Part shown: positions 27,020 through 36,275 of the stretch, piece after piece
Layout: every line of letters starts with the position of its first letter
How positions within the stretch are numbered: position 1 is the stretch's first letter
Origin: Flavobacteriaceae bacterium F08102
Lineage (GTDB): Bacteria > Bacteroidota > Bacteroidia > Flavobacteriales > Flavobacteriaceae
NCBI GenBank assembly: GCA_023015935.1
Contig: JALKAY010000004.1
Location: 124,001 to 188,000 of the forward strand
Reading direction: 5' to 3'
DNA length: 64,000 nucleotides
The notes under the pieces: generated by a model
What the model saw: the letters and a program-made list of their open reading frames with translations, nothing else
Told to the model about the DNA's origin: nothing
Databases searched by the model: none
Translations under genes and position numbers: made by a program

Positions 27020-28669
27020 ATGACTAGAGCAAATTATAAAAGAATTGGTGATTACATAAGACAGGTAAAAAATAAAAATAAAGAAGGGAAATATTCGGAA
27101 CTCTTAGGAATTAATATTGATAAATTCTTTATGCCGTCAGTTGCAAATACAGTAGGTGTAAATCTAAAGAATTATAAAATTATTGAAAAAGGGCAATTTG
27201 CTTGTAATAGAATGCACGTAGGGAGGGATTATAGAATTCCAATAGCCCTTTCGGATAAAGAAATTCCTTTTTTGGTATCGCCTGCTTATGATGTATTTGA
27301 AATAGTAAAAAAGGATGTGCTTTTACCAGAATATTTAATGATGTGGTTTAGAAGAAAGGAATTTGACAGAAATGCCTGGTTTCATACCGATGCTGATGTT
27401 CGAGGAGGTTTAGCTTGGGATGCTTTTTGTGACCTTAAACTCCCCATCCCCTCCATAGAAAAACAACGTGAAATAGTAAAAGAATACAACACGGTTACTA
27501 ACCGCATTAAACTCAATGAACAACTCAACCAAAAACTAGAAGAAACCGCACAAGCTCTGTATAAGCATTGGTTTGTGGATTTTGAATTTCCCTGCCTTCC
27601 TTCGGACTATCGTCCTCACGGGCAGGTAAACCTCAAAATTAGTGATGAGGAATTAAGATCTAAAATTGCTCAAGTATCTACCTATAGAAGAGTTGGGGGG
27701 CTACCTGTTCCTGATGGAAAAAGCTGGTTTGTTTATATTATTGAATGTGTAGATGGAACTTTCTATAAAGGAATGACTAATGATTTATACCGTAGATTTT
27801 ATGAACACTTCACTGGTATTGGTGCAGAATGGACTAAAACACATAAACCTTTAAGAATTATTCATTGGGAAGCTTTTGACAATCAAGATAAGACAGCAAA
27901 AAGAGAAAAAGAACTTAAAACTGGATATGGACGTACTTGGTTGAAACGTCAATACAATAAATTGAAAACCGGTTCACCTGCCCCGAAAATGGCATTGAGG
28001 ACGGCAGGGGAAATGATTTATAATGCAGAATTGGATAAGGAGATTCCGAAGGGGTGGGAAGTTGGTGTAGTTGGAGAGCTTCTTGATACAATAAACGGAT
28101 ATGCCTTTAAAAGCAATGATTTTACTAATACAGGAGCTTATCCAATAATCAAAATTAAGAATGTTGTGCCTCCATTTGTTCAATTATCAGATTGTCAATT
28201 TTTTGAAGGAAATCTTACGCGCAAATTGGAACGAGTACTTGTAAAGAAAAATGATATTCTAATTTCAATGACGGGGTCAGGTGCTAATCAAATGGCATCC
28301 GCTGTAGGACAGGTTGGTAAGTATTACAACTCAAAGGCATCACTACTGAATCAACGAGTTTGCAAGCTAGAGCCGAAGAAAGAGACACTTCGAGAATATA
28401 TTTATCAATTTATTTCTAATGAAGAAACACATTTAGAGTTATTAAATGGGGCAACGGGAAGTGCAAATCAAGCAAATATTTCTCCAGACCAAATAAAGGG
28501 ATTGGTTGTAATAATGCCAGAAAATAAAGTGATGGAAAAATTTCAGCAGATAGGAAAAACTTTGGATGAGTCTAAACGATTCAACTCAAATATAAAATTA
28601 TTAAAGTTGAAAGAATTTATTCTTTCAAAAATGACCAAGGTTGAACAGGAAAAAGAGGTCGTGATATGA
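27020..28669 (+). CDS. hsdS: Type I specificity subunit HsdS with an in-frame GIY-YIG nuclease domain
   Basis: A 549-residue DNA-recognition subunit. Target-recognition domain 1 spans ~1-150, and the helical spacer (EKQREIVKEYNTVTNRIKLNEQLNQKLEETAQALYKHWF) ends near 190. Domain 2 starts at GWEVGVVGELL (~345) and is followed by a second helix. Between them, residues ~191-330 are foreign to HsdS: a palindrome-encoded CLPSDYRPHGQ, then LPVP, and a GIY-YIG fold (VYII...FYKG, LYRRF, KREKELK, ~236-316), closed by another palindrome. The insert has no nearby in-frame Met, so it is made only as part of HsdS. It may alter the spacing of the bipartite site. Confidence 0.92.
   Translation: MTRANYKRIGDYIRQVKNKNKEGKYSELLGINIDKFFMPSVANTVGVNLKNYKIIEKGQFACNRMHVGRDYRIPIALSDKEIPFLVSPAYDVFEIVKKDVLLPEYLMMWFRRKEFDRNAWFHTDADVRGGLAWDAFCDLKLPIPSIEKQREIVKEYNTVTNRIKLNEQLNQKLEETAQALYKHWFVDFEFPCLPSDYRPHGQVNLKISDEELRSKIAQVSTYRRVGGLPVPDGKSWFVYIIECVDGTFYKGMTNDLYRRFYEHFTGIGAEWTKTHKPLRIIHWEAFDNQDKTAKREKELKTGYGRTWLKRQYNKLKTGSPAPKMALRTAGEMIYNAELDKEIPKGWEVGVVGELLDTINGYAFKSNDFTNTGAYPIIKIKNVVPPFVQLSDCQFFEGNLTRKLERVLVKKNDILISMTGSGANQMASAVGQVGKYYNSKASLLNQRVCKLEPKKETLREYIYQFISNEETHLELLNGATGSANQANISPDQIKGLVVIMPENKVMEKFQQIGKTLDESKRFNSNIKLLKLKEFILSKMTKVEQEKEVVI
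27591..28008 (+). mobile_element. Palindrome-bracketed GIY-YIG insertion in hsdS
   Basis: Palindrome P1 (27591-27626, 36 nt) has CCTGCC and GGCAGG ends with an inner GGAC/GTCC hairpin. The LPVP codons (about 27701-27712) resemble the left end of the hsdR insertion. The GIY-YIG region spans ~27724-27970. P2 runs from CCTGCC (27977-27982) to GGCAGG (28003-28008), with ACGGCAG as in the hsdR copy. Boundaries are approximate because the uninterrupted hsdS is not available. There are no intein splicing residues. Confidence 0.65.
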
Positions 28670-31151: not shown

Positions 31152-31754
31152 ATGCCTAAAAATGAGATAGAAAATAAAGTGGTTAAATCTTCAAGAGGAG
31201 TTATTTTCTTCGCTGAAGATTTTGCTAGTTACGCCTCAGCAGATAACATCCGCCAGAGCTTGTCTCGTTTGGAAAAAGAAAGGACTTTGCTTCGCTTGGC
31301 ACATGGCATTTACTTAAAACCGAAAATAGATGATGTTTTGGGCATTATCTACCCAACAATTGAAGAGATTGCCCAACAAATAGCCAAAAGAGATAAAGCA
31401 CGTATAGCACCAACCGGAGCTTTTGCCTTGTATAGTTTGGGACTTACAACTCAAATTCCATTAAAAGTAAGCTACCTAACCGATGGTTCTCAACGCGAAG
31501 TAAAAATTGGGAATAGTATCATTAAATTCAAGAAAACCGTGCCCAAAACCTTTGCCATCAAAGATGAATTATTGCAGCTCATCGTTCAGGCATTTAAAGC
31601 AACAGGACAAAAAAATATAACAGAAGATTTTTTGAGTGCTATTCAGCCAAAAGTTAGGCGGTTAAAACCAGATATTTTGCGCAAACAACTAAAATACGCC
31701 CCGGTATGGATTCAGAAAACCATAAAAGAACTGAGCGATAAGGATGTGGATTGA
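31152..31754 (+). CDS. abiEi: AbiEi-family antitoxin/repressor (DUF6088-like)
   Basis: A 200-residue type IV antitoxin. The N-terminal winged-helix part (FFAEDFASYASADNIRQSLSRLEKERTLLRLAHGIY, ~19-53) is the AbiEi DNA-binding domain. The rest matches the DUF6088 branch (RIAPTGAFALYSLGL, SYLTDGSQREVKIG). AbiEi proteins counteract the AbiEii toxin and repress their own promoter; two perfect inverted repeats lie just upstream. The stop overlaps the toxin start by 11 nt. Located inside the R-M operon, it may also control hsdR downstream. Confidence 0.88.
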   Translation: MPKNEIENKVVKSSRGVIFFAEDFASYASADNIRQSLSRLEKERTLLRLAHGIYLKPKIDDVLGIIYPTIEEIAQQIAKRDKARIAPTGAFALYSLGLTTQIPLKVSYLTDGSQREVKIGNSIIKFKKTVPKTFAIKDELLQLIVQAFKATGQKNITEDFLSAIQPKVRRLKPDILRKQLKYAPVWIQKTIKELSDKDVD

Positions 31755-32733
31755 TTTAAACATAGAACAACAACGCCAGATTTTGCAACAGGTAAGTGTT
31801 ATAACAGGTTTGCCAACCTACGCAGTAGAAAAAGATTGGTGGGTTTGTACTGCGCTACGTGCAGTGTTTCAATCGCAATACGCTCAATCTATCATCTTTA
31901 AAGGAGGCACCTCCTTGAGCAAGGCCTATGGTTTAATCCATCGGTTTTCTGAAGATATTGATTTAATTATCGATAGGCATTTATTGGGATTTGATGAATT
32001 AAAATCCAAATCCCAAATTAAAAAACTACGAAAAGCTTCAGGTGGGTTTATTATCAATGATTTCAGGGAAGAATTGACAAAACAGTTGGAGGTTCTGGGG
32101 ATAGATAAATCATGGTACGAAATCAAATACAAGGTAGATGATACCAGTGATCCCAATACATTAGAAATTTATTACAGATCAAAAACAACTACCACTAACG
32201 AATATATTCAGCCTCGGATTTTGTTGGAAATGGGCGCTCGTTCGCTAACGGAACCAAGTGAAGAAAGAAATATCATTTCTTTTATAGATCACCAATATAA
32301 AGCCCTTGAATTTTCTCAAGAACCATTTCCTGTAAAAGTAGTGTTACCAACAAGAACATTTATAGAAAAAACATTATTGCTGCACGAAGAATTTTCAAAG
32401 CCCATAGAAAAAATAAGAACAGATCGCTTAACAAGACATTTGTATGATCTGGATAGGTTAAAAAACACACCTTATGGCGAATCTGCATTAAACGACAGTG
32501 ATTTGTTTAATACAATTGTAGAATACAGAAAAACGATAACGCCTTTGCGTGGAATGGATTATAGCAAGCATAAAAAAGGAGAATTAAAGATTCTTCCTCC
32601 CAAAGAAGTTGAAAAGGCTTGGGAACAGGACTATAAAACTATGCAGGAAAATATGATTGTTGGGGAAAGTTTGCCTTGGCATGAATTATTAAAAAGTGTT
32701 AAGCTCATAGAGGATAAATTCAATAAAAAGTGA
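31744..32733 (+). CDS. abiEii: AbiEii nucleotidyltransferase toxin
   Basis: A 329-residue AbiEii/AbiGii-type nucleotidyltransferase. The catalytic core motif GGTSLSKAYGLI followed by RFSEDIDLII (~56-78) carries the paired acidic metal ligands. Further family positions are the C-terminal TFIEKTLLLHEEF (~202-214) and RLTRHLYDLDRL. AbiEii toxins arrest growth by transferring nucleotides to RNA targets, with AbiEi as antitoxin. Translation is coupled to AbiEi (11-nt overlap) and to hsdR (GTGA overlap). A role in abortive infection or in stabilising the locus is inferred. Confidence 0.9.
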   Translation: MWIDLNIEQQRQILQQVSVITGLPTYAVEKDWWVCTALRAVFQSQYAQSIIFKGGTSLSKAYGLIHRFSEDIDLIIDRHLLGFDELKSKSQIKKLRKASGGFIINDFREELTKQLEVLGIDKSWYEIKYKVDDTSDPNTLEIYYRSKTTTTNEYIQPRILLEMGARSLTEPSEERNIISFIDHQYKALEFSQEPFPVKVVLPTRTFIEKTLLLHEEFSKPIEKIRTDRLTRHLYDLDRLKNTPYGESALNDSDLFNTIVEYRKTITPLRGMDYSKHKKGELKILPPKEVEKAWEQDYKTMQENMIVGESLPWHELLKSVKLIEDKFNKK

Positions 32734-35700
32734 AATTTACAGAAGCAAAATTAGAACAAGCATTTATAGAATTATTGGGTAATGAAGGTTATCCACATTT
32801 CTTAGGCAATACCCTTAAGCGTTTGCCCGAAGACGTATTGATTGAAGACGATATAATCGAGTTTCTATTAACACAATACAAAAAAGAAGGACTAACCCTT
32901 ACCGAGGCTAAATCCATTGTATTACAGCTAAAAAACTTACCTGCTTCTGATTTATATGAAACCAATAAGAAAATCATACGGTGGTTGTCGGATGGTTTTA
33001 TTCTAAAACGAGAAGACCGCAACCAAAAGGATATTTGGGTATCTTTAATTGACTATGCAGGCTTAGAGCGTCAAATTCAAGGAAAAAACTTAGACACGCT
33101 ATCTGTAGCCGAACCCCAAGAAAATTATGGAGACAATAACATCTACAAATTTGTCAACCAACTTGAAATAGTAGGTACAGAAAAACGCATTCCTGATGGT
33201 ATTATTTATATCAATGGAATACCTGTGGTAGTGTTTGAGTTCAAAACCGCTATTCAAGAAAATTGCACCATCCATAACGCTTATGTACAGTTAACAACAC
33301 GTTATAAAAGAGATATTCCAGAGCTTTTTAAATACAATGCATTCTGCGTTATTAGTGATGGGGTAAACAACAAAGCAGGGTCGTTTTTTGCTCCCTATGA
33401 GTTTTACTATGCCTGGCGTAGAATATCAGGCTTAGCTAAAGATGTAGATGGTATTGATAGTATGTTTACCCTTGTTCAGGGAATGCTGCACCAAAACAGA
33501 TTAAGGGATATTATTCAAAACTTCATTTACATACCTGATACTTCTAAGAAGGATGAAAAAATAGTATGCCGTTATCCCCAGTATTACGCAGCAAGAGCCT
33601 TGTACGACAATATTAAAAAAGCTCAAAAACCAGAAGGAGACGGAAAAGGTGGAACATACTTTGGAGCGACTGGTAGCGGTAAGAGTTATACCATGCTCTA
33701 TCTCACAAGGTTATTAATGAAAAGTGAATATTTTGAAAACCCTACAATCGTTCTCATAACAGACCGTACCGATCTGGACGACCAACTTTCAGCACAATTT
33801 ACTAATGCAAAAACCTTTATCGGTGATAATACCATCCAAAGTGTAGAAAGCAGAGCTGAATTAAGAGAACTTTTACAAGGTCGTGCCAGTGGTGGTGTAT
33901 TCTTAACCACCATTCACAAGTTTACAGAAGATATTGAATTATTAACTGAGCGTACTAATGTGATTTGTATTTCTGATGAAGCACATAGAAGTCAAACCAA
34001 CTTAGACCAAAAGGTTAGAGTTACAGAAAAGGGCGTAAAAAAATCTTTTGGCTTTGCCAAATATTTACACGACTCTTTACCCAATGCAACCTATGTAGGT
34101 TTTACAGGAACACCAGTGGATGCGACTTTAGATGTATTTGGTAAGGTAGTAGATGCCTACACAATGACCGAATCGGTTAAAGATGAAATTACAGTCCGTA
34201 TTGTGTATGAAGGTAGGGCAGCAAAAATAGCCTTACAGAATAGCGAATTAGAAAAGATTGAGAAATATTACGAAGAAGCTGCGGAAGCTGGAGCTAATGA
34301 ATACCAGGTAGAAGAAAGTAAAAAACAATCGGCCAATATGAACGCTATTCTTGGCGACCCGGACAGACTAAAAGAATTGGCAGCCGATTTTGTACAGCAT
34401 TATGAAAATCGCGTAAACGAGGGGGCTACGGTTAAAGGGAAAGCCATGTTTGTATGTAGTTCTCGCAGTATTGCTTATGAATTTTATAAGAATGTTTTAG
34501 AATTAAGACCTGAATGGAACGAAGTAAAGGTTGCAGAACCTGCCTGTGCCGGCCTGTCTGCTGTCGCACAGGCAGGCACGGCAGACAGGGAAGGTGCAGT
34601 GCTTTCAGATAAAGAAAAGCGGGAAATCAAACCTATGGACCTGCCTGTGCCGAAAGAAAATGAATTTTACACTTATGCAATTCTTTGTAATAATGATAGT
34701 ATCTACATTGGGCAAACTAATAACTTACAAAAAAGATGGGAATTACATTTAAGAGGAAAAGCTGCTGAATGGACTAAAAAGTATCACCCTGTTGAATTAT
34801 TTTTTTACGAAACGTTCAACTCAAGAGAAGAGTCTGTAAAACGAGAAAAAGAATTAAAACTAACATCAGGTAGAAGATTCCTGAGAAGAAAATTAAATTC
34901 AGATTCTGCACGGCAGACAGGACGTATCAAAATGATTATGACCCGTGGAAAGGACGACCCCAAAGAATTATATGATTTATTAGGTACTAAAGAATACCGT
35001 AAAGAGTTAGATAGGCAATTCAAAAACGAAAAATCAAATTTCAAAATAGCCATTGTCGTTGATATGTGGTTAACAGGTTTTGATGTTCCTTTTCTTGATA
35101 CGATCTATATCGACAAACCCATTCAGCAACATAACCTAATACAGACCATCTCTCGTGTAAATCGAAAATTCAAAGGCAAAAATAAAGGTCTGGTAGTGGA
35201 TTATATCGGTATCAAAAAACAAATGAATTTAGCGCTTAAAAAGTATTCGGAAGGAGATAAGGACAATTTTGAGGATATCGACCAATCCATGGTTGTTGTG
35301 CGTAATCATCTGGATTTGTTAGCCAAACTTTTCCATAAATTCGATAGCTCAAAATATTTTAGTGGTACTGCATTGGAGCAATTGAACACGCTAAATATGG
35401 CTGCCGAATATGTACAGCTCACCAAAGAAATGGAAACTCGATTTATGGGCTTAGTGAAAAGATTAAAAGCAGCCTATGATATTTGTGCCGGTAGTGAAGA
35501 ATTGACTCAACAGGAAAGAGATTACACCCATTTCTACTTAGCAGTTCGCTCTATTGTTTTCAAACTCACCAAAGGGAATGCACCAGACACAGCTCAAATG
35601 AATGCCAAAGTAAGGGAGATGATTAAAAATGCCTTACAAAGTGATGGTGTAGATGAAATCTTTAAAATGGGGGAAGAAACTGAAAAAGAGCAAGACATTT

Positions 35701-36275
35701 TTGATGAAGACTATTTAGCCAAAATCGATAAAATCAAACTGCCAAATACAAAGATTAAGTTGTTACAGCAACTATTGGCAAGGGCTATTGGTGAAATGAA
35801 GAAAGTCAATAAAGTAAAAGGTGTTGACTTTTCTAAGAAAATGGAATCCTTAGTTCAGAAATACAATCAACGTGATGAAAATGATATTCTACGTAGTGAG
35901 GTGTATGAGGAAATGGCGGAACAGTTAACCAACCTAATTTGGGATGTTTATAAAGAATTTAAGGCAGGTGATGATTTAGGGATTGATTTTGAAGAAAAAG
36001 CATTTTATGATATTCTAAAAGAACTATGTGTTAAATACGATTTCACCTATCCTGAAGACAAATTAATTGAGTTGGCACAAGCAGTAAAAGACTTGGTTGA
36101 TGGGCAGGCTAAATTTCCAGACTGGAACAAAAGGGATGATATTAAATCTGCTTTAAAAGTAGGTCTAATACTTCTTTTAGACGAACACGGCTATCCACCA
36201 GTAGAACGTGATGAAGTGTACAAAGAAATCTTTGAACAAGCAGAAAATTTTAAGAAATACAGTCAAGCAAAATAA
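32730..36275 (+). CDS. hsdR: Type I restriction subunit HsdR with two in-frame insertions, one a GIY-YIG domain
   Basis: The 1181-residue restriction and translocation subunit starts at a GTG that overlaps the AbiEii stop. The N-terminal PD-(D/E)xK nuclease shows RIPDGII...VVVFEFKTA (~153-175). The motor has Walker A GATGSGKSY (~311-319), SDEAHRSQ (~414-421) and GFTGTPVDAT. Between EVKVAEP and the helicase segment RIKMIMTRGKDD two foreign pieces interrupt the second RecA-like domain. Residues 604-620 are a palindrome-encoded peptide, and residues ~637-730 are a GIY-YIG domain (TYAILC...IYIG, NLQKRW, KREKELK). Both preserve the frame, so a full-length product is possible. Whether it still translocates and cuts is unknown. 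Confidence 0.94.
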   Translation: MKFTEAKLEQAFIELLGNEGYPHFLGNTLKRLPEDVLIEDDIIEFLLTQYKKEGLTLTEAKSIVLQLKNLPASDLYETNKKIIRWLSDGFILKREDRNQKDIWVSLIDYAGLERQIQGKNLDTLSVAEPQENYGDNNIYKFVNQLEIVGTEKRIPDGIIYINGIPVVVFEFKTAIQENCTIHNAYVQLTTRYKRDIPELFKYNAFCVISDGVNNKAGSFFAPYEFYYAWRRISGLAKDVDGIDSMFTLVQGMLHQNRLRDIIQNFIYIPDTSKKDEKIVCRYPQYYAARALYDNIKKAQKPEGDGKGGTYFGATGSGKSYTMLYLTRLLMKSEYFENPTIVLITDRTDLDDQLSAQFTNAKTFIGDNTIQSVESRAELRELLQGRASGGVFLTTIHKFTEDIELLTERTNVICISDEAHRSQTNLDQKVRVTEKGVKKSFGFAKYLHDSLPNATYVGFTGTPVDATLDVFGKVVDAYTMTESVKDEITVRIVYEGRAAKIALQNSELEKIEKYYEEAAEAGANEYQVEESKKQSANMNAILGDPDRLKELAADFVQHYENRVNEGATVKGKAMFVCSSRSIAYEFYKNVLELRPEWNEVKVAEPACAGLSAVAQAGTADREGAVLSDKEKREIKPMDLPVPKENEFYTYAILCNNDSIYIGQTNNLQKRWELHLRGKAAEWTKKYHPVELFFYETFNSREESVKREKELKLTSGRRFLRRKLNSDSARQTGRIKMIMTRGKDDPKELYDLLGTKEYRKELDRQFKNEKSNFKIAIVVDMWLTGFDVPFLDTIYIDKPIQQHNLIQTISRVNRKFKGKNKGLVVDYIGIKKQMNLALKKYSEGDKDNFEDIDQSMVVVRNHLDLLAKLFHKFDSSKYFSGTALEQLNTLNMAAEYVQLTKEMETRFMGLVKRLKAAYDICAGSEELTQQERDYTHFYLAVRSIVFKLTKGNAPDTAQMNAKVREMIKNALQSDGVDEIFKMGEETEKEQDIFDEDYLAKIDKIKLPNTKIKLLQQLLARAIGEMKKVNKVKGVDFSKKMESLVQKYNQRDENDILRSEVYEEMAEQLTNLIWDVYKEFKAGDDLGIDFEEKAFYDILKELCVKYDFTYPEDKLIELAQAVKDLVDGQAKFPDWNKRDDIKSALKVGLILLLDEHGYPPVERDEVYKEIFEQAENFKKYSQAK
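34539..34589 (+). repeat. Solo palindromic insertion in hsdR, 51 nt
   Basis: Two interleaved inverted repeats make an A-B-A'-B' order. A is CCTGCCTGTGC (34539-34549) and A' GCACAGGCAGG (34566-34576); B is CCTGTCTGC (34553-34561) and B' GCAGACAGG (34581-34589). The ends CCTGCCTGTGCCG and CACGGCAGACAGG equal those of the nuclease-bearing insertion 50 nt downstream. Length is 17 codons, and it is far more GC-rich than its surroundings. Confidence 0.85.
34640..34921 (+). mobile_element. GIY-YIG insertion in hsdR with the same 13-nt ends as the solo palindrome
   Basis: It begins CCTGCCTGTGCCG (34640-34652) and ends CACGGCAGACAGG (34909-34921), 282 nt or 94 codons. Between them is a GIY-YIG domain related to the hsdS copy (shared LPVP, AEWTK, KREKELK and GR..L+R patterns). 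Its terminus is read in a different codon phase from the solo copy, yet both stay open. Confidence 0.8.

Follow-up and report, generated by a model that had tools for sequence, protein, structure and literature searches.

How does a restriction gene come to carry two palindrome-ended pieces, one bare and one encoding a nuclease, and still keep its reading frame? The question is raised by hsdR, the gene of a type I restriction subunit, in a 64,000-nt stretch of DNA from Flavobacteriaceae bacterium F08102 (contig JALKAY010000004.1, positions 124,001 to 188,000), hereafter the window, to which positions refer unless a locus is named. An earlier note on this DNA proposed that the two pieces are the non-autonomous and autonomous versions of one intragenic element that spreads without breaking host frames. 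Having compared them with relatives across bacteria, we put the probability at roughly three in four that they represent an in-frame, palindrome-ended mobile element family with its own GIY-YIG nuclease and with short, nuclease-free, non-autonomous copies, here called solos. The movement and catalysis of the element are what we infer from these comparisons.

Two in-frame insertions in hsdR

The hsdR gene (32730..36275, plus strand) encodes 1181 aa in a frame that stays open across both inserts. Its product contains HSDR_N, SWI2_SNF2, T1R_D3-like and T1RH-like_C domains together with a GIY-YIG domain at aa 646-715 (Pfam E 2.2e-14). The first insert, the solo (34539..34589, plus strand), measures 51 nt or 17 codons and starts at codon position 1; the second, nuclease-bearing one (34640..34921, plus strand) measures 282 nt or 94 codons and starts at codon position 3, directly after GA. 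They are separated by 50 nt of host hsdR (34590..34639, plus strand), a stretch that was aligned with 15 homologues, is conserved and is 94% identical in homologue L013. The larger insert opens with the left end CCTGCCTGTGCCG (34640..34652, plus strand), which with the preceding GA reads D-L-P-V-P, continues with a GIY-YIG nuclease domain of Slx1/UPF0213-like type (34653..34904, plus strand; identified by Pfam, a structure model of pLDDT 90.6 and Foldseek), and closes with the right end CACGGCAGACAGG (34909..34921, plus strand), read as ...A-R-Q-T-G. Both ends were located by 13-mer search and end comparison. Each 13-mer occurs exactly at two sites in the window, the left one at 34539 and 34640 and the right one at 34577 and 34909; when up to two mismatches are allowed, both have three matches where 0.16 and 0.34 would be expected by chance, and none of 100 shuffles reaches three. 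The common ends, the lengths divisible by three (3n) and the different codon phases within an open frame, all claimed beforehand, were thus borne out.

The empty site is preserved in relatives. A search for HsdR in 149 genomes of the family returned 16 with a match at E <= 1e-100, the source genome counted, and both inserts are missing from all 15 other hsdR homologues; an origin as ancestral hsdR domains, the outcome that would have spoken against the earlier proposal, was rejected on this ground. In L013 (genome G041), whose hsdR DNA is 84% identical before and 92% identical after the inserts, the flanks of both the 51-mer and the 282-mer abut directly, with no host base lost and no target duplication of the kind expected of an insertion sequence. 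Because these flanks join exactly, both window pieces are clean 3n insertions.

The 51-mer has an internal structure of its own. Folded as DNA it gives a z of -3.88, and none of 200 shuffles folds equally well. The interleaved A-B-A'-B' repeats described for it earlier are present, and the pattern can be refined. An outer 27-nt solo in two halves (34539-34552 and 34577-34589, plus strand), CCTGCCTGTGCCGG/CACGGCAGACAGG, is interrupted by the 24 nt of CCTGTCTGCTGTCGCACAGGCAGG (34553..34576, minus strand), an inverted inner solo of 8 codons whose reverse complement starts with CCTGCCTGTGC and ends with GCAGACAGG. Since genomes G544 and G423 contain a 27-mer identical to the outer copy in 26 of 27 bases, the most plausible reading of the 51-mer is a 27-nt solo that encloses an inverted one of 24 nt, both of 3n length.

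Hosts and insertion rules across bacteria

When 395 genomes of the class were searched with the GIY-YIG segment, the top copies in long frames lay in the HsdR of L043 and L044, in the window's own hsdS and in the HsdM of L045. By eye, L044 has an additional in-frame solo of 9 codons that is missing in L043. A GTDB-wide scan with five GIY-YIG segments yielded 215 relatives, the best 80 of which were analysed as loci. Among these 80, related modules occur in Bacteroidota, Spirochaetota, Planctomycetota, Nitrospirota, Patescibacteria-type lineages and others, so that the element is found in the Bacteroidetes, where the earlier note proposed to search, and also beyond them. By frame, Pfam and context, 42 loci are element-like, and 39 of them sit in or directly behind restriction-modification (RM) or DNA-methylase genes, mostly HsdR, HsdM and HsdS; the other three hosts are an alanyl-tRNA synthetase (AlaRS, L076), MsrB (L082) and a RibD_C protein (L085). 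Five assignments (L075, L088, L091, L093 and L108) were made without a Pfam check, and L091 duplicates L090. We regard the remaining 38 loci as free-standing genes that belong to the wider family; three of these, in frames of 175 to 508 aa, have no ends.

Both ends were recognised in 17 loci, 16 of them distinct with the window counted, the left ends of L085 and L105 being placed by hand; in the other 26 of the 42 element-linked loci the ends are diverged, other or missing, and the counts that follow leave them aside. All 16 copies have a 3n length, share one codon phase and follow directly upon GA. Eight are 282 nt long and the other eight 285, 297, 300 or 309 nt. A typical copy consists of a left end CCTGCCTG(T/C)GCCG, a nuclease of about 80 codons and a right end C(A/G)CGGCAG(A/G)CAGG, and in 14 of 16 the ends read D-L-P-(A/V)-P...R-Q-(A/T)-G, with another residue at the last P in L111 and L112. 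The linkage of the window 13-mers to GIY-YIG segments therefore extends to other genomes, as had been predicted: both are exact in L106, the right one is exact and the left one has a single mismatch in L099, and variants of them bound GIY-YIG copies in the 16 distinct loci. Pairwise, the 13-nt ends are 84% identical on each side, and the left end keeps 68% identity at third codon positions. The body of the same copies has 52% amino-acid identity and 39% identity at third codon positions (46% when only codons for identical amino acids are counted). Because the ends are so much better conserved than the body, they look constrained as DNA.

For 10 of the 16 copies there are homologues that run across the joined host flanks, and 7 of these 10 have one with no gap near the join (for example HsdM LLEDD/GIPF, HsdR KD/VDGID and HsdS DPSD/EPAS, the slash marking the join); the gaps amount to one residue in AlaRS, one in MsrB and five in the HsdS of L078. 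Among the sequences at hand, five copies had no spanning homologue matches and those of L112 were uninformative. The MsrB insertion is also bracketed in an alignment to solved structures. All 16 excised hosts are stop-free; this is a consequence of the 3n length and counts for little as evidence.

That most hosts are HsdR, HsdM or HsdS, and that the nuclease is conserved, would suit an accessory nuclease or regulator from which type I enzymes benefit, acquired by ordinary domain fusion. We consider this very unlikely: all 15 hsdR homologues do without the insert, its position varies within HsdR, HsdM and HsdS, there are hosts outside RM, the ends are conserved as DNA, and solos without the nuclease exist.

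In six loci (L087, L092, L095, L100, L101 and L084; Bacillota, Pseudomonadota and Bacteroidota) the 3' end of hsdM runs into the palindrome (EIDLPAGRQ... or similar), and the GIY-YIG gene lies directly behind hsdM or is fused to it. The earlier note had the nuclease made only as part of the host protein. Where a copy lies behind hsdM, it has in some cases what appears to be its own start codon, so that this does not always apply.

Solos, the nuclease and a possible route of movement

Solos range from 18 to 51 nt, have the same or similar ends and lack the nuclease. The pattern CCTGYCTG-N0-45-CAGRCAGG has 36 matches in the 80 loci (697,632 nt), overlaps and the duplicate locus L091 included, against none for the reversed pattern, and many of these palindromes are in frame within RM genes, as in DLSAGQAG. 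This contrast, the 0.16 and 0.34 chance matches expected for the 13-mers in the window, and the presence of related copies in named isolates (Polaribacter sp. Z022, L099; Marinilabilia salmonicolor, L113) leave a negligible probability to chance or assembly artefact, for which one might cite that most loci come from metagenome-assembled genomes. A N0-30 version of the pattern was found in 28 of 40 genomes, the reversed control being above zero in 7 of the 40, two of them with 25 and 5 matches.

The genome with the MsrB insertion (G544) holds both forms with like ends. Of its 13 palindromes, 12 have a 3n length and 7 are located well within long frames. One forms a 10-residue insertion in ATP synthase beta (AtpD) in an alignment to the solved F1 beta chain; another is in frame in arginyl-tRNA synthetase (ArgS), identified from an alignment that does not span the insert; two more apparently lie in DnaE and EF-Ts (by eye, the latter in the shorter of two frames). 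A single locus, L077, combines a 36-nt solo that has ends of the typical GIY-YIG form with a GIY-YIG copy that keeps the right end and has a shortened left end, so that likeness within one locus holds for the right end only. The view that one intragenic element exists both with and without the nuclease is thus supported; the autonomous mobility attached to the nuclease-bearing form would be a further step. Across 63 sites in 9 chosen genomes, 10 of 23 3n sites lie well inside long frames, against 5 of 40 others (p 0.012). Most copies of the perfect 20-mer CCTGCCTGCCGGCAGGCAGG fall outside long frames. Genome G569, that of L129 (loci L184-L201), has 30 CCTGCCTG palindromes, many of them this 20-mer; most of the 30 are not in long frames, and they may represent an intergenic branch of the repeat.

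The enzyme itself belongs, by fold and conserved positions, to the Slx1/UPF0213 group of the GIY-YIG superfamily. The best Foldseek match of the model is the UPF0213 protein BH0048 (E 5e-4, the sole match below 0.001), followed by EF2693 (E 0.011) and Slx1 (E 0.03-0.09). In 32 alignment rows Y13, Y23, G25, R33 and H37 are invariant and E58 is kept in at least 90%; we take these six to be the catalytic positions of GIY-YIG nucleases. The ratio of nonsynonymous to synonymous change (dN/dS) is 0.09-0.25 in 6 of 13 pairs; in 6 others dS is saturated and pN/pS, its uncorrected counterpart, is 0.16-0.25, and the last shows no synonymous change. The embedded nuclease is under purifying selection. In a tree, 41 gene-embedded or RM-linked GIY-YIG domains are split from 37 free-standing ones by one branch (97/98), and shuffled labels need 26 changes on average; the tree, built without L104, L136 and L125, has few columns, a bootstrap that is not fully settled and labels taken from frame, Pfam and context. 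By eye, four free-standing genes of Bacteroidota (L002, L047, L049 and L054) stand beside tRNA-like sequence or in duplicated tRNA-tail-like repeats, and the source genome holds one such tRNA-adjoining gene.

Same-site copies cluster in this tree, so that joint inheritance or transfer with the host gene accounts for some of the spread. The palindromes and the GIY-YIG segment might even have spread only by homologous recombination or transfer of type I RM operons, with no mobility role for the nuclease, an explanation that we rate as improbable. It accounts for the predominance of RM hosts, for the clustering across genomes and for the nearly identical GIY-YIG segments of L089 and L102, which belong to two genera. 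It would also account for the finding that, in 21 RM-hosted genomes, 27 of 60 palindromes fall within the fetched RM locus against 0.18 expected, although this enrichment is partly by construction because the loci were chosen for the element; around free-standing GIY-YIG genes in 16 genomes the count is 0 of 48, with 0.25 expected. It leaves aside the many different sites and genes occupied (among them AlaRS, MsrB, the RibD-type protein, AtpD and ArgS), the ends kept as DNA beyond coding need and the purifying selection on the nuclease.

The hsdS of the window RM locus (27020..28669, plus strand), like hsdR, has an in-frame GIY-YIG domain (27725-27934), which groups in the tree with HsdS copies of other Bacteroidota. 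A pattern search placed imperfect hairpins of the form CCTGCC...GGCAGG to its left (27591..27626) and right (27977..28008), perhaps diverged ends; CCTGCC-N4-30-GGCAGG occurs at 6 places in the 3.32-Mb source genome, 3 of them inside this RM locus. The HsdS GIY-YIG copies of the window (27500-28100) and of L089, L102, L109, L113 and L114, all from Bacteroidota, share one site and have eroded ends; they are perhaps an old, fixed insertion. Between the RM genes (31152-32733) lie two open reading frames that look like an abortive infection pair of the AbiEi/AbiEii kind.

For the mobile element that we favour, the following route may be envisaged. The full form, mostly 282-309 nt, consists of left end, GIY-YIG nuclease and right end; it would enter in frame after the GA of a host codon and is predicted to remain in the host protein, the solos of 18-51 nt being its non-autonomous form. 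The ends could extrude as a hairpin or cruciform, and the nuclease, host-fused or separately made, would nick branched DNA at the ends or at the GA target, whereupon repair or strand transfer might copy the element to a new site with no target duplication. Within genes, mainly 3n insertions in tolerant loops would survive. The GIY-YIG nucleases ANKLE1 and SLX1-SLX4 are reported to cut branched DNA (PMC10287932, PMC8287910); since these relatives do so, a nuclease acting on the extruded palindrome fits by analogy.

An ordinary homing gene would be a rival proposal. In that case the GIY-YIG nuclease would cut its own empty allele and be copied by break repair, and the palindromes would be remnants. 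GIY-YIG nucleases are described as driving homing in other systems (PMC1564403), and some sites recur across phyla, such as the PHxPD site of HsdM in Bacteroidota and Spirochaetota. We nevertheless hold homing to be unlikely: Pfam scans detected no further domain in the insert (though host HsdS proteins bind DNA), only GA is common to unrelated sites, and nuclease-free solos have the same or similar ends. Nor were Hint domains or Rfam matches found, in Pfam scans and in 34000-35500, respectively. Two spliced alternatives were rejected: an intron, on the lack of an Rfam match at gathering score in 34000-35500 and a frame open throughout, and an intein, on the lack of a Hint domain in Pfam scans of hosts and an insert made up of ends and GIY-YIG in 94 codons. 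Nothing in the sequences analysed points to splicing of the insert.

Several observations weigh against mobility as proposed here. Long-frame copies are rare (4 of 395 class genomes among the matches listed). With the AlaRS-borne element as query, no further in-frame copy outside RM was found in 332 genomes of its phylum; 12 genomes had a match, in a long frame only for the query copy and in short ones for the other 11. Among the genomes compared no insertion or excision was seen to be polymorphic within a species, and carriage by plasmids or phages was rejected on a search that gave no plasmid matches, 2 weak phage matches and 6 weak matches in viral contigs. A specific solo pattern was detected in 9 of 390 class genomes and its reversed control in 1, and most sites of the pattern are not in long frames. 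Among the matches listed, a long-frame GIY-YIG copy accompanies it in just 2 of these 9 Bacteroidia genomes, which loosens the pairing of the two forms. In L093 (3947-4600 of that locus), a GIY-YIG copy follows a duplicated, diverged hsdS start, which suggests a duplication at insertion and a possible exception to the no-duplication pattern. The GA and 3n rules may partly be a product of survival, the clustering of same-site copies tells in the same direction, and SLX1 is reported to be inactive without SLX4 (PMC8287910).

Known systems, a second family and wider meaning

The nearest description in print that our searches reached is a single case. In HsdR MCA0838 of Methylococcus capsulatus, a GIY-YIG domain of the Slx1 group is inserted at about aa 800 and is missing from an 80% identical homologue (Dunin-Horkawicz et al. 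2006, PMC1564403). The protein family and the type of host are those of the window element. The available text of that paper calls the insertion unique and says nothing of palindromic ends or solos, of rules on frame or phase, or of other such hosts; its authors ask whether other GIY-YIG members may act as molecular parasites. No description of palindrome-ended intragenic GIY-YIG elements was found in the literature searched, outside which most subscription journals lie. As far as these searches go, the combination, rules and range of the element are new.

Each half of the design has counterparts elsewhere. Palindromes of Rickettsia, Wolbachia and Methanocaldococcus lie in frame in housekeeping genes and are kept in the protein (PMC2996958, PMC3733652), and the solos resemble these protein-coding palindromic elements (RPE/WPE) in being 3n palindromes in frame in protein genes. 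By their description they differ in sequence and hosts, and the present ends are of the CCTGCCTG type instead of having the CGTC tag; the Rickettsia elements belong to the CGTC class, for which the available parts of these papers report no dedicated transposase and no nuclease-bearing form. REP/RAYT systems (REPtrons, PMC3733652) share with ours short palindromes as proposed non-autonomous partners of an enzyme-bearing form. RAYTs, however, are described as HUH tyrosine transposases with GTAG-tagged REPs, whereas here the ends are of the CCTGCCTG type, the element is in frame in genes and the carried enzyme is GIY-YIG in every fused host scanned with Pfam, a scan limited to hosts. The yeast HO endonuclease and its relatives have likewise been described as a family of unorthodox homing elements built on a selfish endonuclease (PMC7282813). 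Homing endonuclease genes, introns and inteins also place a selfish nuclease inside a host gene; the present element differs in that no splicing element was seen, the insert is read in frame, its ends are palindromic and solos exist. Of the HO family, we know of no palindrome-ended, in-frame solo form.

A second nuclease shows a similar arrangement. DUF559 (PF04480) is in frame in the HsdR of L096 (aa 466-571) and of L104 and is missing in the related HsdR of L080; in L096 and L104 it adjoins a different hairpin family, of the CCCTCTCC...GGAGAGGG type. A DUF559 search of 295 class genomes gave 19 with a match, and 10 of the 28 matches listed are in frames of 359 to 1426 aa. Nine of these ten hosts were scanned with Pfam (the tenth, L280, lay outside the scan): three are methionine synthases, two leucyl-tRNA synthetases, one an apparent IleRS-type class I synthetase, two SpoIIE-domain proteins and one HsdR. 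By eye, most long-frame hosts have C-run/G-run hairpins on both sides. These loci (L096, L104, L255, L266, L268, L269, L270, L272, L275, L276, L278 and L280) point to DUF559 as the founder of a parallel element family and suggest more than one origin of the design.

One can then envisage, at even odds in our judgement, that bacteria harbour a general class of mobile elements embedded in proteins: palindrome-ended, equipped with a small nuclease of their own, inserted in frame even in essential genes, translated within the host protein and spawning nuclease-free hairpins. It would have at least two unrelated founders, GIY-YIG (CCTGCCTG ends; HsdR, HsdM, HsdS, AlaRS and MsrB) and DUF559 (C-run/G-run hairpins; HsdR, MetH, LeuRS, IleRS-type synthetase and SpoIIE), and the driver that in-frame protein-coding palindromes have lacked would be supplied by the nuclease-bearing forms. 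A nuclease-bearing form with the same ends is a candidate driver for in-frame palindromes and makes the question of their driver testable. If this is true, a mobile element would survive as tolerated protein, not by splicing out, and would be a source of new insertions in restriction and housekeeping enzymes.

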